Shown: one piece after another, positions 5,417 to 28,983 of the stretch | How positions within the stretch are numbered: position 1 is the first letter of the stretch | Layout of the letters: every line of letters starts with the position of its first letter | Source: Microbispora sp. ZYX-F-249 | GTDB lineage: Bacteria; Actinomycetota; Actinomycetes; Streptosporangiales; Streptosporangiaceae | NCBI RefSeq assembly: GCF_039649665.1 | Contig: NZ_JBDJAW010000043.1 | Span: 1 to 64,000 of the forward strand | Length of the DNA stretch: 64,000 nucleotides | Reading direction: 5' to 3' | Program-made: the position numbers and the translations under genes | Notes under the pieces: generated by a model | The model's database searches: none | Told to the model about the DNA's origin: nothing | What the model saw: the letters and a program-made list of their open reading frames with translations, nothing else

Positions 5417-6361
5417 TCACCTCGGGGTCAGCCCGAGGCGGGCGGCGCAGGCCGACAGCTCGTCCGTCGCCGCCGCGAGGTCGGCCGTCGGGGTGGGGGA
5501 AAGCAGGATCCGGCCGGCGCCCAGGGAGGCCAGCGAGGCGGCCTTCTCCGGGGTGATGCGGGAGACCAGGTGACCGAGCGTGAGCTCCAGCGCTCCGGGG
5601 TCGCGCCCGCACGCCTCGGCCTCGGCGCGCATCACGCCGAGCAGCCTGCGCAGGTCGTCTCCCACGACGCCGAGCGGCTGGAAACCGTCGCCCAGGCGTC
5701 CGGCGCGCCGGGCCGCCGCGACGCTGTGCCCGCCGATGTGGACCGGCACGGTCCCGCGGACCGGCTTGGGGTAGGTCATCGCGCCGTCGAAGTGGAAGAA
5801 CTCGCCATGGTGGTCGACGCCGTGGTCGACGCCGTGGTCGACGCCGTGGTCGACGCCGTGGTCGACGCCGTGGTCGACGCCGTCCGGGCCGCCACCCGCC
5901 CACAGCGCGCGCATCACGCGGATCTGCTCGTCGGCCCGGCGGCCCCGGGTGGCGAAGTCGGTGCCGCAGGCCTCGATCTCCTCCTTCATCCAGCCCATGC
6001 CCACGCACACCCGCAGGCGCCCGCCGGACAGCGCGTCCACGGTCGCCAGGCGCTTGGCCAGCACGACCGGATGGTGGTTGGGCAGCACCAGGACACCGGT
6101 CGCCAGCCCGATCCGGCTCGTACGGCCGGCCAGGAAGGCGAGCAGGTCGAGCGGGTCGGGGATGTCGCAGTCGTCGGGCAGTTCCATCCGGCCCGAGCTG
6201 TCGTAGGGGTAGACGCTGGAGTAGCGGCTGATCACGACCGTGTGCTCGACCACCACGACGGACTCGAACCCGCACGCCTCGGCGTGCCGGGCGAAGCCCG
6301 CGATCCACTCGGGGTCGGCTGTCGTGTTCGCCGCAACCGGGGCCAGCACGGCGTATTTCAT
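5417..6361 (-). CDS. LLM class (F420-type) oxidoreductase with GVDH repeat loop
   Basis: 314-residue luciferase-like monooxygenase/F420 oxidoreductase. The start MKYAVLAPVAANT fits the family, so ATG 6361 is preferred to GTG 6373. Family motifs include GFESVVVVEHT, GRLRVCVGMGWMKEE near residue 115, and HGEFFHF with TYPKP near 190. Just before HGEFF an unusual insert of six GVDH repeats is encoded by a 12-bp tandem repeat. It is the first gene of a leftward LLM-SnoaL-SDR operon that mirrors the LLM-SnoaL set at 1.3-3.1 kb. Substrate unknown. Confidence 0.87.
   Translation of the reverse strand: MKYAVLAPVAANTTADPEWIAGFARHAEACGFESVVVVEHTVVISRYSSVYPYDSSGRMELPDDCDIPDPLDLLAFLAGRTSRIGLATGVLVLPNHHPVVLAKRLATVDALSGGRLRVCVGMGWMKEEIEACGTDFATRGRRADEQIRVMRALWAGGGPDGVDHGVDHGVDHGVDHGVDHGVDHHGEFFHFDGAMTYPKPVRGTVPVHIGGHSVAAARRAGRLGDGFQPLGVVGDDLRRLLGVMRAEAEACGRDPGALELTLGHLVSRITPEKAASLASLGAGRILLSPTPTADLAAATDELSACAARLGLTPR
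5812..5883. repeat. 12-bp tandem repeat, six copies
   Basis: Six perfect copies of GGTCGACGCCGT in a row, inside the LLM oxidoreductase gene and in frame. They encode (GVDH)n on the minus strand. Copy-number change would add or remove four residues without breaking the frame. Confidence 0.95.
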
Positions 6362-6509
6362 CGCTCCGCTCACGCCGGGACGCTATCGGCGCGGCCCGGG
6401 GCCGGACCGTGCTTCTCCCGATGACCGGGACGCTCCCCCACCCGCGCCGTGACCCATTCATGACCTTGATAGCCTGCCTGCTCCGAAAGGCACGGGGATC
6501 GGGGGCCCG

Positions 6510-7117
6510 ATGGGGGAAGGGCGGCGGGTACGGCTCGGTGCGCCGCTCGACACGGCCGGGATCGTCCTCGCCACGGCCTTCTTCTGCCTGTCGCTCACGC
6601 CGTCGCTGCTGCCCCGCCCCTGGACGCTGCGGGGGATCATCGCGGGCGTGCTGTCCGCCACCGGATACCTGGTGGGCGTGATCGCCGGCGCGCGCGTACG
6701 CCCGGCCGCGGCCCGGATCCCGGTTCACACCATGACGCGGACCAGGGTGCGGTGGCGCGCGGGGTGGAACCGCACGGGACGGCGGCGGGTCCGGCGCGGG
6801 CGCTGGGCCGTCTCCTCGGGCGATGGTTCCCCGCGACGGCCGCGCAGTTCGCCGCGGGGCACCGGCCCGCACTGCTGGTCTTCGAGGAGAGCCTGGGGGC
6901 GTTCGGCGCGGAGTCGGCGTTCGGCGGCGACCGGGACCTGCGCGAGCCCGTCTACCGGGACGGCGAGACCGTGCGCTTCGCCAACCGGCCCTCGGACCTG
7001 GACGTCCCGGCGTCGCCGTGGAAGCGGCCGCGGGTCGTCTACCTGCAGCATCCCTCGGACCCGAACGTGTGGTGGACGCGCCGGCGGGGCACGGCCACGA
7101 CCACGACGGCGAGGTGA
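6510..7117 (+). pseudogene. Decayed alpha/beta-hydrolase (Abhydrolase_9 type)
   Basis: Frame 6510 onward encodes MGEGRRVRLG and then a membrane segment containing FFCLSLTPSLLPRPW, typical of the N-terminal membrane domain of this roughly 500-residue family. A second frame (about 6752-7117) carries pieces of the catalytic domain: RPALLVFEESLGAFGAESAFGG and SPWKRPRVVYLQHPSDPNVWW. The middle of the gene is missing, the two parts are in different frames, and about 35 residues between FGG and PVYRDGETVRFA appear deleted. The nucleophile elbow reads FEESLG where FGESLG is expected. A broken remnant rather than a working gene. Confidence 0.75.
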
Positions 7118-7155
7118 TCGCCGCGTGGGCGCGGATCGCGCACCGCGACACCGGT

Positions 7156-7746
7156 TCAGGCCTCCAGTGAGTCGATCCAGGCGAGCAGCCGGGCCCCCTC
7201 ACGCGTCATGATCCCGGGGTCGCGCAGGGCGTTGGCCAGCAGCGACATGCCCTGGTAGGCGCCCACCAGGGTCAGCGCGAGGCCGTCGGGCTCGGGCAGG
7301 CCGAGCTCGCGGAATTGCTGCTCGACCCAGTCGAGCAGCAGCCGGATGACCTTGCCCGCCTCCGCGTCCAGGCCACCCTCGTCGCGTTTGTCCAGCTCGG
7401 CGGCGAGCGTGCCGGTCGGGCAGCCGTACCGTGCCGCGACGTCGCGCTGGCCGACCCACGCCTCCACGAGCCCCTTGAGCCGATCGCGCGGGTCCGGCAG
7501 CCGCTCCAGCCGCTCGGTGAGCTCCCCGAGGTGCCGGGCGTGCTCGTCCAGCGCGGCGGCGACGAGCTCGTCCTTGGTCTTGAAGTAGTAGTAGACGTTG
7601 CCCACGGGGACGTCGGCGGCGCGGGCGATGTCGGCGATGGTCGTGCGCTCGGCGCCCTGCCGGTGCACGACCTCGGCGGCGGCGGCCGTCAGCCGCCGCC
7701 GCTTGGCGCTCGCGGCCCGCACCCGGGCACTCGTCGAGTCAGTCAC
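7156..7746 (-). CDS. TetR family transcriptional regulator
   Basis: 196-residue repressor-type protein. The helix-turn-helix spans about residues 25-60 (TTIADIARAADVPVGNVYYYFKTKDEL) and the C-terminal ligand domain contains YGCPTGTLAAEL, as in LmrA/YxaF-like TetR proteins. GTG 7746 is the start. A perfect 20-bp palindrome covers the start codon, pointing to autorepression. A palindrome with the same arms lies before the haloalkane dehalogenase operon at 50.5 kb, so that operon is a predicted target. Confidence 0.9.
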   Translation of the reverse strand: MTDSTSARVRAASAKRRRLTAAAAEVVHRQGAERTTIADIARAADVPVGNVYYYFKTKDELVAAALDEHARHLGELTERLERLPDPRDRLKGLVEAWVGQRDVAARYGCPTGTLAAELDKRDEGGLDAEAGKVIRLLLDWVEQQFRELGLPEPDGLALTLVGAYQGMSLLANALRDPGIMTREGARLLAWIDSLEA

Positions 7747-20277: not shown

Positions 20278-20326
20278 GTGACGCACCGGTAACGGCCATT
20301 TATTCCGGATGCCGCGGTCCGGAAAC
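20278..20326 (+). promoter_or_regulatory. Possible GlnR box before the Nit1C operon
   Basis: GTGAC at 20278, GTAAC at 20289 and GAAAC at 20322 are all in an 11-bp register, matching the spacing of GlnR half-sites (GTnAC-N6-GAAAC). The positions at 20300 and 20311 do not match, so the site would be partial. It ends 23 bp before the first Nit1C gene. Confidence 0.4.
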
Positions 20327-20349
20327 CCCGCCGGACTGAAGTGGCCGTC

Positions 20350-21681
20350 ATGGAATCGGTGGCGGAAATCAGCACACCGCGGATCGCCGGGGCGCACTAT
20401 CCCGTCGCGGTCGTCGGAGGCGGCCAGGCCGGGCTGTCGGTCAGCCACTGCCTGAGCCGGCGCGGCATCGAGCACGTCGTCGTCGAGGCGGAGCGAGTCG
20501 GCCACGAGTGGCGCGAGCGCCGCTGGGACTCCTTCTGCCTGGTGACCCCCAACTGGCAGTGCGACCTGCCGGGCTTCCCCTACCGCGGGCCCGACCCCGA
20601 CGGTTTCATGGTCCGCGAGGAGATCGTCCGCTACCTGGAGGACTACGCCGCCTCCTTCGGGCCCCCGCTCGCCGAGGGCGTGCGCGTCACCCGCTTACGC
20701 AGGGCCGCGAGCGGGACGTTCGAACTCGTGACCACCGCCGGGGACCTCACCGCCGACCAGGTCGTGGTGGCCACCGGCCCCTACCACGCGGCGTCCGTCC
20801 CCCGGCTGGCCGAACGACTGCCCGCGGGGATCACGCAGATCCACTCCTCGCGGTACCGCCGTCCCGCGCGGCTTCCCCGGGGCGCGGTCCTCGTGATCGG
20901 CACCGGGCAGTCGGGCTGCCAGATCGCCGAGGATCTGCATCTGGCCGGGCGCCAGGTCCACCTCGCCGTCGGGAGCGCGCCCCGGGTCGCCCGTTTCTAC
21001 CGGGGCAGGGACTGCGTGGCGTGGCTGCACGACATGGGCCACTACGCCAAAAGCATCGACGAGTTCGACGACGCGGACGCCGTACGCCTGCGGGCCAACC
21101 ACTACGTCACCGGGCGCGATGGCGGGCGCGACATCGACCTGCGGGCCTTCGCCCGCGACGGGATGCGCCTGTACGGCCGGCTGACCGGCGCGACCGGCAC
21201 GACGCTGGAGTTCGCGGGCGACCTCAAGGACAACCTCGACCGGGCCGACGCCGTGGCCGAGGGGATCAAGGACGCCATCGACGCGTACATCGCCACGCGC
21301 GGCGTCGACGCCCCCGCCGAGCCCCGCTACGTGCCGGTCTGGGAACCGGGCGAGCCGGTACGCGCCCTCGACCTGGCGGCGGCCGGGATCACCTCGGTCG
21401 TCTGGGCGACCGGGTTCACCCGCGACCACCGCTGGATCGAGATCCCCGCCTTCGACGGCCGGGGCTATCCGATGCACTGGCGCGGCGTCACGAGCTGTCC
21501 CGGGCTCTACTTCCTCGGGCTGCCCTGGCAGCACACCTGGGGCTCCGGCCGGTTCGAGGCGGTGGGCCGGGACGCCGAGTTCCTGGCCGGCCACATCGAG
21601 GCATCCCGGCGGCTCGCCGACGTCTGCGGCGCGCTGACCGGCACGCCCGCCGAACTGTCCCCCGCACTCCCGGTCGGGTGA
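20350..21681 (+). CDS. nitH: MSMEG_0569-family flavin-dependent oxidoreductase (NitH)
   Basis: 443-residue two-dinucleotide-domain flavoprotein. FAD motif [15 protein letters not shown] is near residue 25, the NAD(P) motif [17 protein letters not shown] near 182, and [15 protein letters not shown] near 355 is typical of this family. It is a core member of the Nit1C cluster, linked in other bacteria to cyanide or nitrogen-starvation use. ATG 20350 is chosen; GTG 20341 is possible and neither has a clear ribosome site. First gene of a long rightward operon, 5 bp before the amidohydrolase gene. Confidence 0.85.
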
Positions 21682-21686
21682 GTCCC

Positions 21687-22514
21687 ATGGTCCGCGACAT
21701 GGTCTTCGACGCGCACCGCCACATCGGCGTGCTGCCCGCGCATCCCTTCTACGGCGGCCCCGCGGTGAACCCCGACGTCACCGCGCGGGCCACGGTCAAG
21801 CAACTGATCGCCGACCTCGACGCGGAGGGCACCGAGCGTGCGCTGGTGCTGCCCAACTACGGCGTGCCCGACCCGGCGGTCGCCTTCGCCCTCAACGATC
21901 TCGTGCTGGAGGCCGCGCAGGCCGACGACCGGATCCGCGCCGGGCTGTGGGTCTCGCCGCTGCCCCGCGACGAGGAACGCACCGCCCGCGCCCTCGGCCT
22001 GGCGGGCGAGCGGGGCGTGCGGGCGCTGAAGCTGAGCTTCCTGCTCGGCGGGCGCCCCGCCGACCCCGCCTGCCGTCCGGGGCTCGACCGGATCTTCGCG
22101 GCGGCCGAACGCCACGGCCTGGTCGTCCACGTCCACACCTCCCCCGGCGCCGCCTCGGACGTCGACGAGGTCGGGCACCTGGTCGAGTGGTACGCCGACC
22201 GCGTGCCGGTGCACCTCGTGCACTTCGGCGGCGGGATGAGCGGCCACATCAAGCTGGCCGGTTCCCGGTTCTTCGACTGGATCGCGGCCGGCAAGCGCGT
22301 CTACACCGATCTGTCCTGGGCCATCGGCTTCGCACCCTACTGGCTGGCCCGGGAGATCGAGCGGCGCGGCCTCGGCCACGACCGCGTGCTGTTCGCCAGC
22401 GACCAGCCGTGGGGCGACTTCGCGGGCGAGCACGCCCGGATGCACGCCGCGGCCGGGGACGGCGAGCTGGGCGCGCTCGTCTTCCACGACACCTTCGCCT
22501 CCCTCTACGACTGA
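21687..22514 (+). CDS. Amidohydrolase-family TIM-barrel protein in Nit1C operon
   Basis: 275-residue metal-dependent hydrolase-fold protein (amidohydrolase_2 type). The N-terminal metal motif is DAHRHIG, followed by VVHVHTSPG near residue 148, VHFGGGMSGH near 175 and SDQPWGD near 235. Members hydrolyse or decarboxylate small acids. It lies 5 bp after nitH and 26 bp before nitB, so it is part of the operon, although it is not one of the usual core Nit1C genes. It may process the cluster's product or substrate; that is inference. Confidence 0.8.
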   Translation: MVRDMVFDAHRHIGVLPAHPFYGGPAVNPDVTARATVKQLIADLDAEGTERALVLPNYGVPDPAVAFALNDLVLEAAQADDRIRAGLWVSPLPRDEERTARALGLAGERGVRALKLSFLLGGRPADPACRPGLDRIFAAAERHGLVVHVHTSPGAASDVDEVGHLVEWYADRVPVHLVHFGGGMSGHIKLAGSRFFDWIAAGKRVYTDLSWAIGFAPYWLAREIERRGLGHDRVLFASDQPWGDFAGEHARMHAAAGDGELGALVFHDTFASLYD

Positions 22515-22540: not shown

Positions 22541-23056
22541 ATGTCCGTCGACATGACCGACCTCGAGAAGAAGAGCATCGAGGAGATCCCCCACCCGTCC
22601 CTGCCCGAGGGCTCCAGCATCTACGGCAGCACCAAGGTGTTCCCCGACTACAAGGCCGAGAACGGCGAGTCGTACTTCACGCTCGTCCACGGCATCGCGC
22701 ACGAGTCGTCGGTCAGTTTCGTGGCCGTGCTGCAGGCCACCCGGGCGCTGCGCAAGGGCTTCGAGACCGCCATCTACTTCTACGGCCCGGGCTCGCTGAA
22801 CTGCCTGGCCACCCGCGGCTTCCCGACGACCGGCAACTCGGCGTTCCCGGGCGAGCACAACATCAACAACCAGCTCAAGACGTTCATCGCCGAGGGCGGG
22901 AAGGTCTACTGCTGCCGCTTCGGCCTGTCCCTGCACGGCGCCCGCGAGGAGGACCTCATCGAGGGCGTGATCCCGACGCATCCGCTGGACGTGCAGGACG
23001 CCCTGATCCACTACGCCCGCAAGGGCGCCGTCATCAACTCCACCTACCAGCTGTAG
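22541..23056 (+). CDS. nitB: MSMEG_0572/Sll0783-family nitrogen starvation protein (NitB)
   Basis: 171-residue protein of the MSMEG_0572/Sll0783 family, the marker protein of the Nit1C cluster. Conserved stretches are GSSIYGSTKVFPDYK, FETAIYFYGPGSLNC with LATRGFPTTGNSAFPGEHN, and VYCCRFGLSLHG. It looks like a DsrE-type fold with conserved Cys residues, but its biochemical role is unknown. In Synechocystis the homologue is induced by nitrogen starvation and needed for normal polyhydroxybutyrate build-up. AGGAG precedes ATG 22541. The radical SAM gene starts 4 bp after its stop. Confidence 0.88.
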   Translation: MSVDMTDLEKKSIEEIPHPSLPEGSSIYGSTKVFPDYKAENGESYFTLVHGIAHESSVSFVAVLQATRALRKGFETAIYFYGPGSLNCLATRGFPTTGNSAFPGEHNINNQLKTFIAEGGKVYCCRFGLSLHGAREEDLIEGVIPTHPLDVQDALIHYARKGAVINSTYQL

Positions 23057-23060
23057 TGCC

Positions 23061-24125
23061 GTGACCGTCGATCTGCGGATCATGACCCGCGCCGAGCTGG
23101 CCCTGCGCGGCGTGGCCTTCGACACGCCCGTACGGCGGCCGGACGGCGCGGGGCCCAGCGGCGACGGCCACGTCCTCGTCGACGGCGCCGGCGCGGCCCT
23201 GCCCGTCGCCCCGGACAGCCCTTACACCGTGCGCGACGGCACGGTCTGGCTCGGCGACCAGGACACCGGCGTCTCCCTCGTCCCCGTGCGGCGGCCGAGG
23301 TTCTACGACCTGACCACCGCCGACGGCGTGCCCTACGAGAAGATCGCCCGCCTGCACGGCGCGGACGTGCTCGCCACGACCGTCGTCCAGACATGCGTCC
23401 GGTACGGCGAGGCCGACCGCTGCCGTTTCTGCACCATCGAGGAGTCGCTGCGGTCGGGCGCCACGGTGGCCGCCAAGACGCCCGCCCAGCTCGCCGAGGT
23501 GGCGGAGGCGGCGGTGCGGCTCGACGGCGTTCGGCAGATGGTGATGACCACCGGAACGACCACCGGGCCCGATCGCGGCGCGCGCACCCTGGCGCGGTGC
23601 GTGCGCGCCGTGCTGGACGCCGTGCCGCACCTGCCGATCCAGGTGCAGTGCGAACCGCCGGGCGACCTGGCCTGGATCGGCGCGCTGCGCGAGGCCGGGG
23701 CCACCGCGATCGGCATCCACGTGGAGTCGCTGGACGAGGAGGTCCGGCGGCGCTGGATGCCGGGCAAGTCGTCGGTGCCGCTGGTCGAGTACGAGGCCGC
23801 GTGGGACGAGGCGGTCCGGGTGTTCGGGCGCAACCGCGTCTCGACGTACCTGCTGGTGGGGCTGGGCGAGGACCCCGACGAGCTGATCGCGGGCGCGGGC
23901 CGGCTCATCGGGCGCGGCGTCTACCCCTTCGTGGTCCCGTTCCGCCCGATGCGGGGCACGCTCGCCGCCCGCGACGGGATCGGGCCTCCCGGCGCCGGCC
24001 TGCTGACGTACGTCACCGAGGGCGTGGCGGCGCTGCTGCGCGCGGCCGGCATGCGCGGCGCGGACCAGGGGGCGGGCTGCGCGGCCTGCGGCGCGTGCGG
24101 CGTGCTGAGCGCGGCGGGCGGGTGA
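23061..24125 (+). CDS. nitD: MSMEG_0568-family radical SAM protein (NitD)
   Basis: 354-residue radical SAM enzyme. The cluster motif is the non-standard C112-x8-C121-x2-C124 (TCVRYGEADRCRFC), followed by a TIM-barrel part with QVQCEPPGDLAWI and GIHVESLDEE. A C-terminal Cys-rich segment, GCAACGACG, may hold a second cluster. The chemistry in Nit1C is not established. GTG 23061 follows nitB by 4 bp; the stop is 7 bp before the next gene. Biotin synthase-like enzymes are the nearest general relatives. Confidence 0.88.
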   Translation: MTVDLRIMTRAELALRGVAFDTPVRRPDGAGPSGDGHVLVDGAGAALPVAPDSPYTVRDGTVWLGDQDTGVSLVPVRRPRFYDLTTADGVPYEKIARLHGADVLATTVVQTCVRYGEADRCRFCTIEESLRSGATVAAKTPAQLAEVAEAAVRLDGVRQMVMTTGTTTGPDRGARTLARCVRAVLDAVPHLPIQVQCEPPGDLAWIGALREAGATAIGIHVESLDEEVRRRWMPGKSSVPLVEYEAAWDEAVRVFGRNRVSTYLLVGLGEDPDELIAGAGRLIGRGVYPFVVPFRPMRGTLAARDGIGPPGAGLLTYVTEGVAALLRAAGMRGADQGAGCAACGACGVLSAAGG

Positions 24126-24132
24126 GGCGCCG

Positions 24133-25587
24133 ATGTACCTCGACGGGAACCCGCGGGCAGCGGCATCGGCCGATCCGCCCGACATCCTCGCGCTGCTCGG
24201 CGACCACAGCACGCTGGCCCGGCGGCCCGGCCTCCGGATCGAGCAGGCCGCGGACGCCGCGGCCCTGCGCGCCTACCGGCGGCTGCGGCACGAGGCGTTC
24301 GTCCGGGAGCAGGGGCTGTTCGACGGGCACGACCTCGACGACAGGGACGACGATCCGCGCACGGTCACGCTGGTGGCGAGGGACCCGGCGGGCACGGTCG
24401 TCGGCGGCGTGCGCCTCGGGCCCGCCTGCGACGGCCCCGACATCGGCTGGTGGACGGGCGGGCGTCTCGTGGTGGCGCCCGCCGCGCGCGGCGCCGGCGG
24501 CGCCGGCGCGGCGCTGGTGCGGGCCGCGTGCGCCCGCGCCGAGGCGGAGGGGGTGCTGCGGTTCGAGGCGACGGTGCGGGCCGGGGCCGAGACGTTCTTC
24601 CGCCGCCTGGGCTGGACGCGGGTGCGGCCGGTGACGGTCTCGGGCGCGCCCCACGTGCTGATGCGCCACCCGATCGGCCGGATCGCGGCCCAGGCCGCGG
24701 CGGCGAAGTCGGCGCTCGGCCCGCTGCTCGCCGCCCTCGCCGGGCGGGATCCGCACGCCCTCGGCGGCCCGGGCTTCACCGGCGACGACGCGGCGCCGGT
24801 GCCCGGCGGCGATGTCGTCGCCGCCTGCGACGCGATCGTGCCGTCCATGGTCGAACGCGACCCGGAGTGGGCCGGCTGGTGCTCCGTCCTGGTCAACCTC
24901 AACGACCTGGCCGCGATGGGCGCCGCCCCGGCGGGGCTGCTCGACGCGCTCGCCGCCCCCGACGCCGCGCACGCCGCCCGGGTGCTGGACGGCCTCGCGC
25001 GGGCCGCCCGCGCGTACAACGTGCCGGTGCTGGGCGGGCACACGCAGCTCGGGGTGCCGGCCGCGCTGTCGGTGACGGCGCTCGGCCGCGCCGCGCGTCC
25101 CGTGCCGGGCGGCGGCGGGCGCCCCGGTCATGCCGTGCGCCTCACGGCGGACCTCGGCGGCGGCTGGCGGGCCGGATACCGGGGCCGCCAATGGGACTCG
25201 ACCACCTCCCGCCGTACGGACGAGCTGCGCGCGATGCTCGGCGCGGTCGCGGCCGGCGCGCCCGCCGCCGCCAAGGACGTGTCGATGGCCGGGATCGCCG
25301 GCACGCTCGGCATGCTGGCCGAGGCGAGCGGCTGCGCGGCCGTGCTGGACGTGGCCGCGGTGCCGCGCCCGGCCGCCGCCGCCGCCATGGGCGACTGGCT
25401 CACCTGCTTCCCCGGCTTCGCGATGCTCACGGCGGACGAGCCGGGCGCGCCGGCGCCTCCGGCGGGACCGGCCGCCTCGGCGGTGTGCGGGGAGCTGACC
25501 ACCGGCCGGGGCGTCTCGCTGCGCTGGCCCGACGGACAGGTCACGGAGGCCGTCGCCGGCCCGGTGACCGGATTGGGGACCGCGTGA
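24133..25587 (+). CDS. Fused GNAT acetyltransferase / AIR synthase-like protein (NitE-NitF)
   Basis: 484-residue fusion. Residues about 30-185 are a GNAT domain of the MSMEG_0567/Sll0786 type (RRLRHEAFVREQGLFDGHD, then RLVVAPAARGAGGAGAALV as acetyl-CoA loop). Residues about 195-484 are an AIR synthase (PurM)-like ATP-binding domain of the Sll0787 type (GFTGDDAAPVPGGD, VNLNDLAAMGAAPAGLLD, CFPGFAML). In cyanobacteria these are two genes; here one chain would couple acetylation and ATP-dependent activation. ATG 24133 begins 7 bp after nitD, and the 3' end overlaps the nitrilase start (GTGA). Confidence 0.87.
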   Translation: MYLDGNPRAAASADPPDILALLGDHSTLARRPGLRIEQAADAAALRAYRRLRHEAFVREQGLFDGHDLDDRDDDPRTVTLVARDPAGTVVGGVRLGPACDGPDIGWWTGGRLVVAPAARGAGGAGAALVRAACARAEAEGVLRFEATVRAGAETFFRRLGWTRVRPVTVSGAPHVLMRHPIGRIAAQAAAAKSALGPLLAALAGRDPHALGGPGFTGDDAAPVPGGDVVAACDAIVPSMVERDPEWAGWCSVLVNLNDLAAMGAAPAGLLDALAAPDAAHAARVLDGLARAARAYNVPVLGGHTQLGVPAALSVTALGRAARPVPGGGGRPGHAVRLTADLGGGWRAGYRGRQWDSTTSRRTDELRAMLGAVAAGAPAAAKDVSMAGIAGTLGMLAEASGCAAVLDVAAVPRPAAAAAMGDWLTCFPGFAMLTADEPGAPAPPAGPAASAVCGELTTGRGVSLRWPDGQVTEAVAGPVTGLGTA

Positions 25588-26435
25588 GCGCCCTGCGCAT
25601 GGCGGCGGTGTCCGCCGGGTTCGGCCGCGACCTCGAGGAGGACTTCGCGATCGCCGAACGCCTCATCAAGGAGGCCCGCAACGAGGACGTGCGGCTTCTC
25701 GCGCTGCCCGAGGCGTGCCTCGGCGGTTACCTGCTCAGCCTCGACGGCGACGCGGCGGACGCCGGGCCGCCCCCGCTCGCCGTGGACGGTCCCGAGATCC
25801 GGCGGCTGGCCGCGCTGGCCGGCGACATGGTCGTGGTCGCGGGCTACTGCGAGGACGGCGGCGACGCCCGTTACAACAGCGTGGTGTGCGTCAGCGGCGA
25901 CGGCGTGCTGGGCAACCACCGCAAGGTCCACCAGCCGCTCGGCGAGAACGCCAGCTACGCCTCGGGCGACGGCTTCCACGCCTTCGACACGCCCGTCGGC
26001 AGGATCGGCATGATGATCTGCTACGACAAGGCGTTCCCGGAGTCCGCCCGTGCGCTGGCCCTCGACGGCGCGCAGATCGGAGTGTGCGTGTCGGCCTGGC
26101 CGGGCTCGCGGACGAACGCGGCGCGGGACCTGGAGCGTGACCGCTGGAAGCGGCGCTTCGACCTGTTCGACCGGGCCCGGGCGCTGGAAAACCAGATCGT
26201 GTGGCTGTCGGCCAACCAGGCGGGCACGTTCGGGTCGCTGCGCTTCGTCGGCAGCGCGAAGGTCGTGGACCCCGGTGGCGAGATCGTCTCGGCGACGGGT
26301 GTCGGGCCCGGCACGGCGGTCGCCGAGGTCGACGTGCCGCGGGCGCTGGAGACCGCGCGCCGGTCGATGGGCCACCTGCGCGACCGCCGTCCGGAGACCT
26401 ACGGGGCGGCGGGGCAGGCGGGGCACGCGGGGTGA
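25584..26435 (+). CDS. nitC: Nitrilase-superfamily hydrolase, active copy (NitC)
   Basis: 283-residue carbon-nitrogen hydrolase with the full catalytic set: Glu43 in LPEACLGGY, Lys114 in HRKVHQP and Cys146 in MMICYDKAFPE. It would hydrolyse a nitrile or amide; in Nit1C clusters the nitrilase is tied to cyanide assimilation or nitrogen scavenging. It is shorter than the 330-350 residues of Nit6803-type nitrilases. GTG 25584 overlaps the previous TGA. The next gene is a close paralogue that keeps only the Lys. Confidence 0.88.
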   Translation: MSALRMAAVSAGFGRDLEEDFAIAERLIKEARNEDVRLLALPEACLGGYLLSLDGDAADAGPPPLAVDGPEIRRLAALAGDMVVVAGYCEDGGDARYNSVVCVSGDGVLGNHRKVHQPLGENASYASGDGFHAFDTPVGRIGMMICYDKAFPESARALALDGAQIGVCVSAWPGSRTNAARDLERDRWKRRFDLFDRARALENQIVWLSANQAGTFGSLRFVGSAKVVDPGGEIVSATGVGPGTAVAEVDVPRALETARRSMGHLRDRRPETYGAAGQAGHAG

Positions 26436-27268
26436 GCGTCCTGCGGATCGCCGCGGCGGCCGCCCACTTCGGCCGCGATCTCGCCTTCGACCTGGCCCGC
26501 ATCGCCAAGGTGATCGGCGATGCCCGCGCCGCGGGCGCCCGGCTGCTCGTGCTGCCCGACGCCGCGCTCGGCGGCTACCTCGCCGACCTGCGCCGGCCGG
26601 ACCCCGACGCGCTGCCGCCCGCGCTGAAGCCGGACGACCCGGTGATCGCGCGGGTGGCGGCGCTGGCCGCCGAGATGGTGGTGTGCGTCGGCTTCTGCGA
26701 GGACGGCGGCGACGTCCGGTACAACGCGGCCGTGTGCGTCAGCGGCGACGGCGTGCTCGGCCTGCACCGCAAGGTGCACCTGCCCGCGGGCGAGACCGCG
26801 GCCTACGGTCCGGGCGACCGGTTCGACGCCTTCGACACCCCGGCCGGGCGGCTCGGCATGCTGATCGACTACGACAAGACCTTCCCGGAGTCGGCCCGCA
26901 GCCTCGCGCTCGACGGCGCGCAGATCCTGGCGTGCCTGTCGGCGTGGCCCGCCAGCGTCACCAACCGCGCGCCCCGGATGGCCCAGGACCGGCAGTCGCG
27001 GCTCTTCGACCTGTACGACCAGGCGCGGGCCGCGGAGAACCAGGTCGTGCTCGCCTCCTCCAACCAGACCGGCGTGATGGGCGGCATGCGTTTCCTGGGC
27101 CAGGCCAAGGTCGTCGGGCCGGGCGGGGACGTGCTCGCCCGCACCTGGTCGAAGGCCGGGCTGGCCGTGGCCGAGCTCGACGTCGCCGCCGAGATCGACC
27201 GCGCCCGGCGGATCCTGCGTCACCTCGACGAGCGCAGGCCCGACGTCTACCGGGAGGCGCGCGGGTGA
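26432..27268 (+). CDS. Nitrilase-like pseudoenzyme, tandem paralogue of NitC
   Basis: 278-residue paralogue of the preceding nitrilase, collinear with it. At the catalytic positions Glu43 is Asp (LPDAALGGY) and Cys146 is Asp (MLIDYDKTFPE), while Lys114 (HRKVHLP) is kept. Without the nucleophilic Cys it should not make the thioimidate/acyl-enzyme, so it is probably non-catalytic. It may form a hetero-oligomer with NitC or bind ligand. The frame is intact with no stops and keeps structural motifs such as YCEDGGDVRYN-like FCEDGGDVRYN, so it is under selection rather than decaying. GTG 26432 overlaps the nitC stop. Confidence 0.88.
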   Translation: MSVLRIAAAAAHFGRDLAFDLARIAKVIGDARAAGARLLVLPDAALGGYLADLRRPDPDALPPALKPDDPVIARVAALAAEMVVCVGFCEDGGDVRYNAAVCVSGDGVLGLHRKVHLPAGETAAYGPGDRFDAFDTPAGRLGMLIDYDKTFPESARSLALDGAQILACLSAWPASVTNRAPRMAQDRQSRLFDLYDQARAAENQVVLASSNQTGVMGGMRFLGQAKVVGPGGDVLARTWSKAGLAVAELDVAAEIDRARRILRHLDERRPDVYREARG

Positions 27269-28347
27269 GGATCGCGCTGCTCAGCTACTCGACCAGGCCC
27301 CGCGGCGGGGTCGTGCACACCCTCGCCCTCGCCGAGGCGCTCGCGGCGGCGGGACAGCACGTGACGGTGTGGACGCTCGGCCGGGGCGGCGATTCGGGGT
27401 TCTTCCGCCCGGTCGCCCCGGCCGTGCGGCTGTGCGTCGTGCCGTTCCCCGACATTCCCGGGGAGGGCGTCGGCCCGCGCGTGCTGCGGTCGATCGCGGT
27501 GCTGCGCAGGGCGTTCGCCCCGGAGGCGGCGTCCTACGACGTCGTCCACGCCCAGGACTGCATCAGCGCCAACGCGGCCGGCCGGTGCGTGCGGACCGTC
27601 CACCACGTCGACCACTTCACCACGCCCGAGCTGGCCGCCTGCCACGAGCGCGCCATCGTGACGCCGTACGCGCACGTCTGCGTGTCGGAGGCGGTGGCGG
27701 CCGAGCTCGCGGCCGGGTGGGGCATCACGGCGGCGGTGATCCCCAACGGCGTCGCGTACGAGCGCTTCGCGTCCGCTGATCCGGTCGCCACCGGGATGTG
27801 GCGCAGGCGGCTCGGGTCGTACGTCCTGACGGTCGGCGGCATCGAGCCGCGCAAGGGCTCGCTCGACCTGCTGGAGGCGTACGCGCTGCTGCGGGAGGCA
27901 CGGCCGGACGTCCGGCTGGTGATCGCCGGGGGTGAGACGCTCTTCGACTACCGGGACTATCGGGCGCGGTGGGAGGCCAGGGCGGCGGAGCTGGGCGTCG
28001 AGCCGGCGGTGCTCGGCCCTGTCTCCGACGCGGACCTGCCGCCGCTCGTGACGGGCGCGGGCGCCTTCGCGTTCCCGTCGGTCAAGGAGGGCTTCGGGCT
28101 CGCCGCGATGGAGGCCCTGGCGGCGGGCGTCCCCCTGGTGGTGCGCGATCTGCCCGTCCTGCGTGAGGTCTTCGGCTCCGCCGCGCGCTTCGCCGCCACT
28201 CCCGGGGCCCTCGCCGCCGAGCTCGCCCACGCCCTCGGCCACACCGATCCCGGCAGGCGGGCGGCGGGGCGGGAGCTCGCCGCGCGCCACACCTGGACGG
28301 CCGCCGCCGAACGGCACATCGCGCTGTACGAGACGCTCGGGCCGTAG
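27265..28347 (+). CDS. MSMEG_0565-family glycosyltransferase (GT4 fold)
   Basis: 360-residue GT-B glycosyltransferase. The N-terminus MRIALLSYSTRPRGGVVHTLALAEAL, the hinge TVGGIEPRKGSLDLLEAY near residue 195 and the donor-site segment SVKEGFGLAAMEALAAGVPLVV near 280 are typical of GT4. It belongs to the Nit1C-linked MSMEG_0565 family, suggesting that a glycosylated product or intermediate is made. GTG 27265 overlaps the preceding stop by 4 bases. The acceptor is unknown. Confidence 0.87.
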   Translation: MRIALLSYSTRPRGGVVHTLALAEALAAAGQHVTVWTLGRGGDSGFFRPVAPAVRLCVVPFPDIPGEGVGPRVLRSIAVLRRAFAPEAASYDVVHAQDCISANAAGRCVRTVHHVDHFTTPELAACHERAIVTPYAHVCVSEAVAAELAAGWGITAAVIPNGVAYERFASADPVATGMWRRRLGSYVLTVGGIEPRKGSLDLLEAYALLREARPDVRLVIAGGETLFDYRDYRARWEARAAELGVEPAVLGPVSDADLPPLVTGAGAFAFPSVKEGFGLAAMEALAAGVPLVVRDLPVLREVFGSAARFAATPGALAAELAHALGHTDPGRRAAGRELAARHTWTAAAERHIALYETLGP

Positions 28348-28356
28348 GCTCGGAAC

Positions 28357-28983
28357 GTGGCGATCAGACCCTTCGACGCGGTGCTGTGCGACTTCGACGG
28401 TGTCGTGAAATTCCAGGATCTTGAGCAGCAGGCGGAGGTCGAGCGGGCGTACGGGGTGGAGCCGGGAACGGTGGCGCGGGTGACCGGCGGGTCCGCGCTG
28501 GTGGTCCCGGCCCTGACCGGGCTGGTGACCCGCGAGGAGTGGCTGGCGTCGGCCGTTCCCGTCCTCGCCGAGCTGGTCGGCTCGTCCGCGCGGGCGAGCG
28601 CGCTGACCGCCGACTGGCTGGCGGCCCGCACGTGGGCGGACGAGGAGGTGCTCGCGCTGCTCAGGCGGGCCCGCGCCCGCGTCCCCGTCGTGCTCGTCAG
28701 CAACGCCACCTCGGAGCTGGCCGCCCACCTGCGTGAGCTGGAGCTGCACGACGCCTTCGACCACGTCGTCAGCAGCTACGACGTGGGGGTGGCCAAGCCC
28801 GACCCGCGGATCTTCGAGATCGCCGCGGGCCGCGCCGGCGTCCCCGCCCGGCGCTGCCTGTTCGTCGACGACCTGGCCGAGAACGTCGGCGCGGCGAGGG
28901 TGCTCGGCATGACCGGGGTCGTCTACCGCGCCCCGGCGGACCTGGCGGCGGCGCTGCTCCCACTGCTCGGCGAGGCTCCCTGA
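28357..28983 (+). CDS. HAD-superfamily hydrolase
   Basis: 208-residue HAD phosphatase/dehalogenase-like protein. Motif I is CDFDGVVKF (nucleophile Asp near residue 12), motif II LVSNATSEL near 118, and motifs III/IV VAKPDPRIFE near 148 with FVDDLAENV near 170. GTG 28357 starts 9 bp after the glycosyltransferase stop, so it can be read from the Nit1C operon. It might remove a phosphate from a cluster product; that is inference. It overlaps the VOC gene by one base. Confidence 0.85.
   Translation: MAIRPFDAVLCDFDGVVKFQDLEQQAEVERAYGVEPGTVARVTGGSALVVPALTGLVTREEWLASAVPVLAELVGSSARASALTADWLAARTWADEEVLALLRRARARVPVVLVSNATSELAAHLRELELHDAFDHVVSSYDVGVAKPDPRIFEIAAGRAGVPARRCLFVDDLAENVGAARVLGMTGVVYRAPADLAAALLPLLGEAP

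Follow-up and report, generated by a model that had tools for sequence, protein, structure and literature searches.

The closest described systems to the locus considered here are the Nit1C cluster (genes NitBCDEFGH) and the MSMEG_0565–0572 ("gpr") operon of M. smegmatis. Nit1C is described as confined to subfamily-1 nitrilases plus its other genes (Podar et al., 2005, PMC1199592). In medium lacking nitrogen, GlnR drives a more than 500-fold induction of the gpr operon, as measured via MSMEG_0572, and the operon confers resistance to peroxide (PMC6039565). It contains two C-N hydrolases, MSMEG_0566 and MSMEG_0571, both listed as raised under nitrogen limitation (PMC4617892, PMC4222082), with MSMEG_0566 treated as a putative aliphatic amidase (PMC6039565). 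A further proposal reads the UGA of MSMEG_0571 as a selenocysteine codon that connects MSMEG_0571 with the flavoprotein (PMC6039565).

Here we analyze a stretch of 64,000 nt from Microbispora sp. ZYX-F-249 (assembly GCF_039649665.1, contig NZ_JBDJAW010000043.1, positions 1 to 64,000, forward strand; hereafter the window), in which two adjoining C-N hydrolase genes, A and B, lie in an operon with genes of these systems (Table 1). Genomes and loci used for comparison carry our own handles (G and L numbers, respectively), given where they must be told apart.

Table 1. Features of the operon and its upstream region, in positions of the window.
Feature	Positions	Strand	Evidence and remarks
GlnR-box-like site GTGACGCACCGGTAAC	20278..20293	+	first base 63 bases before first operon gene
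MSMEG_0569 family flavin-dependent oxidoreductase (Nit1C ORF7/NitH)	20341..21681	+	TIGR04046 646.8 bits, cut-off 498.35
Amidohydrolase (Amidohydro_2)	21684..22514	+	PF04909 68.3 bits
MSMEG_0572/Sll0783 family protein (NitB, DsrE-like)	22550..23056	+	TIGR04044 254.7 bits, cut-off 109.85
MSMEG_0568 family radical SAM protein (NitD)	23061..24125	+	TIGR04043 489.1 bits, cut-off 303.7
GNAT + AIR-synthase-like fusion, MSMEG_0567 family (NitE+NitF)	24133..25587	+	TIGR04045 90.4 bits, TIGR04050 484 bits, both above cut-off
Gene A: C-N hydrolase with E43, K114, E121, C146	25584..26435	+	PF00795 139 bits; model pLDDT 91; putatively active partner
Gene B: nucleophile-less paralogue, D43/K114/E121/D146	26432..27268	+	PF00795 119 bits; model pLDDT 92
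MSMEG_0565 family glycosyltransferase	27265..28347	+	TIGR04047 441.8 bits, cut-off 259.85
HAD-family hydrolase, possibly next gene of transcript	28357..28983	+	PF00702 62.9 bits

An earlier note on this DNA, made from the sequence alone, had called the operon a Nit1C cluster. The radical SAM, GNAT, AIR-synthase, NitB-like and flavoprotein genes of Nit1C are indeed together in one operon here, whereas a pair of C-N hydrolases, one of them without the cysteine, takes the place of the nitrilase, the GNAT and AIR-synthase genes are fused, and NitG (TIGR04042; 0570 family) has no match in the organism's own genome. TIGR04042 is above its cut-off in 11 of the 22 related genomes tested. Because the subfamily-1 nitrilase on which the definition of Podar et al. 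rests is missing, the operon is Nit1C-like rather than strict Nit1C, and the earlier assignment stands for the shared genes and falls for the defining nitrilase and NitG. The likeness to the gpr operon lies in the families of MSMEG_0565, 0567, 0568, 0569 and 0572 (glycosyltransferase, GNAT/AIR-synthase, radical SAM, flavoprotein and NitB) accompanied by two C-N hydrolases in one operon; the differences are that A and B adjoin in the window, that the 0570 gene is missing and that an amidohydrolase has been added. Judged by its gene families, the operon is thus a Nit1C-like one of the MSMEG_0565–0572 type. Two related genomes (G298 and G695) have the order NitB-A-NitG-FMO-rSAM-GNAT/AIR-B-GT, which corresponds to 0572 through 0565 with A at 0571 and B at 0566; G074 and G648 keep this order from NitB to the glycosyltransferase without a NitG match, and in G624, of the same family, B adjoins the flavoprotein instead. 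B therefore stands at the MSMEG_0566 place by gene order in related genomes, not by M. smegmatis sequence. The HAD-family gene is found beside the glycosyltransferase in L001, L006, L120 and L203 and is absent from the other rows compared. A TIGR04043 gene without an A or B match in the same stretch occurs in 15 stretches of other lineages within the phylum (L090–L104), some cut by contig ends; none of their genomes has TIGR04048 above its cut-off.

Genes A and B encode 283 and 278 residues, respectively, both start at GTG, and the start of B overlaps the stop of A by 4 bases (GTGA). The active-site residues given in the earlier note (Glu43, Lys114 and Cys146 in A; Asp43, Lys114 and Asp146 in B) are correct in place and letter, and the frame of the second gene is, as it had said, intact. 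The Glu-Lys-Cys catalytic triad is accordingly present in A and absent from B, and a further glutamate, Glu121, is found in both. A and B are 58% identical, and the two other matches to B in the genome (37% and 34% identical) have Glu-Lys-Glu-Cys at the four positions. At codon 146 the change from TGC to GAC takes two base changes, which excludes a single misread.

By domain, both proteins belong to the nitrilase superfamily, as each exceeds the CN_hydrolase gathering score of 23.2 (Table 1). The earlier note had proposed an alignment of both proteins with Nit6803-type nitrilases. A and B score 32 and 30.4 bits against the TIGR04048 profile, whose curated cut-off is 502.6, and we reject both as nitrilases of this type. 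TIGR04048 is above its cut-off neither in the whole of the organism's own genome nor in 67 other actinobacterial genomes (same phylum, selected for carrying radical SAM or A/B genes), 7 of which have weaker matches of 218–266 bits. No NCBIfam family is above its cut-off for A or B; the best match for both is N-carbamoylputrescine amidase (117 bits for A and 104 for B, cut-off 410). A, called the active nitrilase in the earlier note, is a putative enzyme, a C-N hydrolase closest to the carbamoylputrescine-amidase/PH0642 branch. The AlphaFold2 models of A and B have nearly identical secondary elements, and the first solved folds returned by Foldseek for the model of B are the PH0642 amidase (6ypa/1j31) and the Medicago N-carbamoylputrescine amidase (5h8l), with TM-scores of 0.80–0.88 at 26–27% identity. 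The natural forms of these two amidases have cysteine at the column where B has aspartate, their Cys-to-Ala/Ser forms being engineered.

Among 235 distinct relatives of A and B, column 146 is cysteine in 125, aspartate in 110 and no other residue in any. Glu43, Lys114 and Glu121 are present in all 125 Cys rows; in the Asp rows Lys114 is kept in 110 of 110 and Glu121 in 109 (Asp in the remaining one), and position 43 is Asp in 101, Gly in 7, His in 1 and Gln in 1, so that the Asp43 ascribed to the second gene holds for the window's B and not for the clade as a whole. The set was obtained from 292 extracted rows by merging duplicates and removing 10 that were unusable (three pieces of the frameshifted L025, two pieces cut at contig edges, a row containing an unknown base and four rows extracted past the true stop). 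Part of it comes from a scan of bacterial genomes for B with short patterns that include the Asp motif, which gave 80 loci, the best 80 of 384 relatives; since the patterns contain that motif and the best 80 of 384 were kept, the scan favors the Asp form, and the whole-protein surveys at phylum and class level that enlarged the set beyond these loci do not. An A-type neighbor is present at each of these 80 loci, frameshifted in L025 (Streptomyces sp. P3), where the amidohydrolase and radical SAM genes also have frame breaks, probably through sequencing indels, and B is intact. For every one of the 33 B genomes in one whole-protein survey, and for G374, the residues of B were read directly; in an order-wide survey (39 B genomes) they were read in G000, G409, G633 and six others, and the rest were assigned by identity.

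As a count of Cys and Asp rows splits the proteins by the very residue in question, we left columns 43 and 146 out of a separate tree, in which 36 Asp and 70 Cys rows (106 in total) are separated by one branch with support of 90. In a larger tree with outgroups, thinned from 235 to 165 rows plus 2 outgroups and carrying long-branch warnings, the Asp rows form one clade (support 94) with one C-to-D change. The best BLAST match labels 113 rows as B, namely the 110 Asp rows and 3 Cys rows (L089, L113 and L119) that are placed outside the Asp clade. Both outgroup paralogues, as well as single-copy relatives from other families, have Glu-Lys-Glu-Cys, from which cysteine would be the ancestral state. 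No Cys146 occurs within the B clade on either tree, and recurrent loss of the cysteine was rejected in favor of the single change seen on both. The earlier note had suggested looking for the Asp146 form in other actinobacterial clusters and had named homologues that restore Cys146 as the mark of a sequencing error; the form was found in 110 distinct proteins of one clade, and no such homologue lies inside it. The change from Cys to Asp is genuine and ancient, and it is found across many families of Actinomycetota.

B is under purifying selection. Its median pairwise dN/dS is 0.21, compared with 0.25 for A (maxima 0.69 and 0.71; 3780 of 3828 pairs from 88 loci, restricted to dS of 0.1–1.2), and dN is lower in B than in A for 3548 of the 3780 pairs, which are non-independent and share history. 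Scattered stops in B were not found, the stops of flagged rows lying at the gene end (codon 274 in G511), and the order-wide survey reported one TGA within the match of G936, G937, G938 and G941. Scattered stops with dN/dS near 1 had been proposed as the sign of simple decay; this combination was not found. A lone sequence lacking the nucleophile could be mistaken for a pseudogene in decay or for an error of sequencing, but this explanation, to which we give next to no credence, is refuted by the 110 distinct sequences in one clade, the two-base codon change, the open frames and a dN/dS of about 0.2 with slower change than in A. What had been put forward as a non-decaying, cysteine-less paralogue beside a cysteine-type partner is therefore borne out.

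Columns that are at least 98% fixed number 60 in A and 99 in B, and 50 of them carry one residue common to the two proteins. At eight sites B is fixed for a residue that differs from that of A (C146D, A150T, W188Q, R191L, F195Y, L201A, M262L and D267E), four of them on helix 187–203 of the model (p=0.0006, the helix having been picked after the list was seen; p=0.0016 when ten sites are admitted under looser criteria), which may lie at the dimer face. Together with the slower change, these B-only fixed sites and the overall conservation indicate that B has been kept and specialized with its Lys-Glu-Asp site retained. Such a strictly conserved pocket is also compatible with an active enzyme, in which Asp146, working together with Lys114 and Glu121, would serve as general base (or as nucleophile), replace the Cys146–Glu43 pair and carry out a separate step of the pathway. 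We regard this altered chemistry as a real if not the likeliest possibility. It fits the retention of Lys114, Glu121 and Asp146 and the relaxation of residue 43 alone, taken as the base serving the cysteine and expected to relax if Asp146 had assumed both roles, and it fits the larger number of fixed columns and B's own fixed residues near the site and on helix 187–203. Against it, we know of no member of the nitrilase superfamily with an aspartate nucleophile, and B is nearly always accompanied by A.

That association is seen in 68 of 70 genomes with B (32 of 33 in one survey, 35 of 36 further genomes, and G374), and in the window's order 38 genomes have both genes, 1 has B only, none has A only and 306 have neither. 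The 46 four-base overlaps between A and B among 106 loci are accompanied by 8 other overlaps, 27 gaps of at most 60 bases, 4 of 61–300 and 21 of more than 300 bases. The rate of B over 93 loci covaries most with that of A (0.46, the other genes giving 0.11–0.33; six other operon genes were compared, with the amidohydrolase left out and the distances corrected for the average over five other genes), and A's own top partner is the GNAT-AIR protein (0.52, above B). This covariation suggests a tie between A and B, the pairs being non-independent and the two genes homologous neighbors.

The first exception, G419 (98% complete), has an intact B with neither an A match at E<=1e-60 nor a radical SAM match, and the persistence of this orphan with Asp43, Lys114, Glu121 and Asp146 intact is a further point for an aspartate-based enzyme. 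Nine otherwise fixed columns are changed in it; B genes that have an A show 14 such changes in L086, 8 in L166 and 6 in L136 (most B of like divergence have 0–4), so the nine are not unique and carry little weight. The orphan B gene (L149, 9342–10205) lies, by our ORF reading, between chromate-transporter-like and aldose-epimerase-like genes, with no other operon marker in 19.5 kb. The second exception, G778, has an intact B in a cluster without A, radical SAM and GNAT-AIR genes, on a gapped contig that may be misassembled; at this locus (L202, 4081–7166) the amidohydrolase is fused to a piece of NitB and the glycosyltransferase is shortened, through internal deletion or misassembly.

An A-type (Cys) gene without B occurs in 20 genomes (16 of one survey, together with G121, G100, G143, where the A-like and radical SAM genes are on separate contigs, and G381, counted by presence, linkage aside), and B is therefore not generally required for keeping A. 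This argues against B being solely a component for structure or assembly, whether in A or in the cluster of enzymes, with pocket residues kept only for the fold, a role we consider improbable. The 50 fixed columns that the two proteins share, the clustering of B-specific changes on one helix and the A–B rate covariation would all agree with it, but a clade-wide aspartate with Lys114 and Glu121 unchanged appears stricter than a structural role would need. Of 34 B genomes, 31 have the flavoprotein (TIGR04046) above cut-off, versus 4 of 20 A-only genomes (Fisher p=1.6e-7), and 15 of the 20 A-only genomes belong to one family (f90). A direct link between B and TIGR04046 was dropped, as the A-only genomes are mostly of this family and another oxidoreductase is present in L152 and L153 and also in L086, which has B. 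Read from translations, this is a FAD-dependent-looking protein of ~500–550 residues in the flavoprotein slot (L152, 10018–11616, and L153, 9995–11608, both A-only; L086, ~5700–7160). Three A-only clusters, L150, L159 and L089, carry the flavoprotein, and no remnants of B were found in them.

The explanation we favor, at slightly less than even confidence, is that B is a nucleophile-less partner of A with a kept ligand pocket, and we rank such a ligand-binding partner slightly above the Asp-based enzyme. An early duplicate of A would have lost the Cys nucleophile in a single C-to-D change, been freed from the strict need for Glu43 and been retained as A's partner in the Nit1C-like operon. B would most likely sit in a mixed oligomer with A, or act on A's substrate or product; its invariant Lys114/Glu121/Asp146 site would bind a pathway compound without cleaving it, and ligand-bound B, having no hydrolase activity of its own, may tune or protect A's reaction. 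The single Asp clade, the retention of Lys114 and Glu121, the low dN/dS, the helix sites, the co-occurrence and rate covariation with A and the overlapping frames all point toward such a partner. The B genes without A in G419 and G778, the 21 loci at which the genes are far apart, A's stronger covariation with GNAT-AIR and the conserved pocket itself count against it.

The operon would probably be under nitrogen control. The M. smegmatis GlnR motif is given as Gn2AC-n6-GnAAC-A (PMC3662644), and the site upstream of the operon (Table 1) is the sole plus-strand match to GTNACN6G[AT]AAC in the 64 kb. A minus-strand match, GTAACGCGGGCGAAAC, lies around 57705. The upstream site is the same in L005 and L008 and is represented by half-sites with a changed spacer in L006 and L007; it was not found in L009. 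Within the 200 bases upstream, 12 of 118 clusters have the strict pattern and the other 106 have none, compared with 0.24% of mononucleotide shuffles. GlnR may control the operon in Microbispora as well.

In the open-access literature (subscription papers being outside our scope) we found no description of a cysteine-less nitrilase partner or pseudo-nitrilase. B is a conserved pseudoenzyme-like paralogue within a superfamily and an operon type that are already known. The cysteine of this superfamily is regarded as essential, and a lineage-wide Cys-to-Asp twin marks a subunit of a new kind or else new chemistry. The gene at the MSMEG_0566 position, called an aliphatic amidase in nitrogen-starvation studies, may not act as one. 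Genomes that naturally carry A and B, A only or an orphan B provide ready comparisons for working out what the Nit1C/gpr pathway does. We think it unlikely that B founds a branch of the nitrilase superfamily that depends on aspartate, in which Asp146 replaces both the Cys nucleophile and the Glu base to catalyze a new reaction; if true, this reaction would belong to a nitrogen-starvation pathway of wide distribution.
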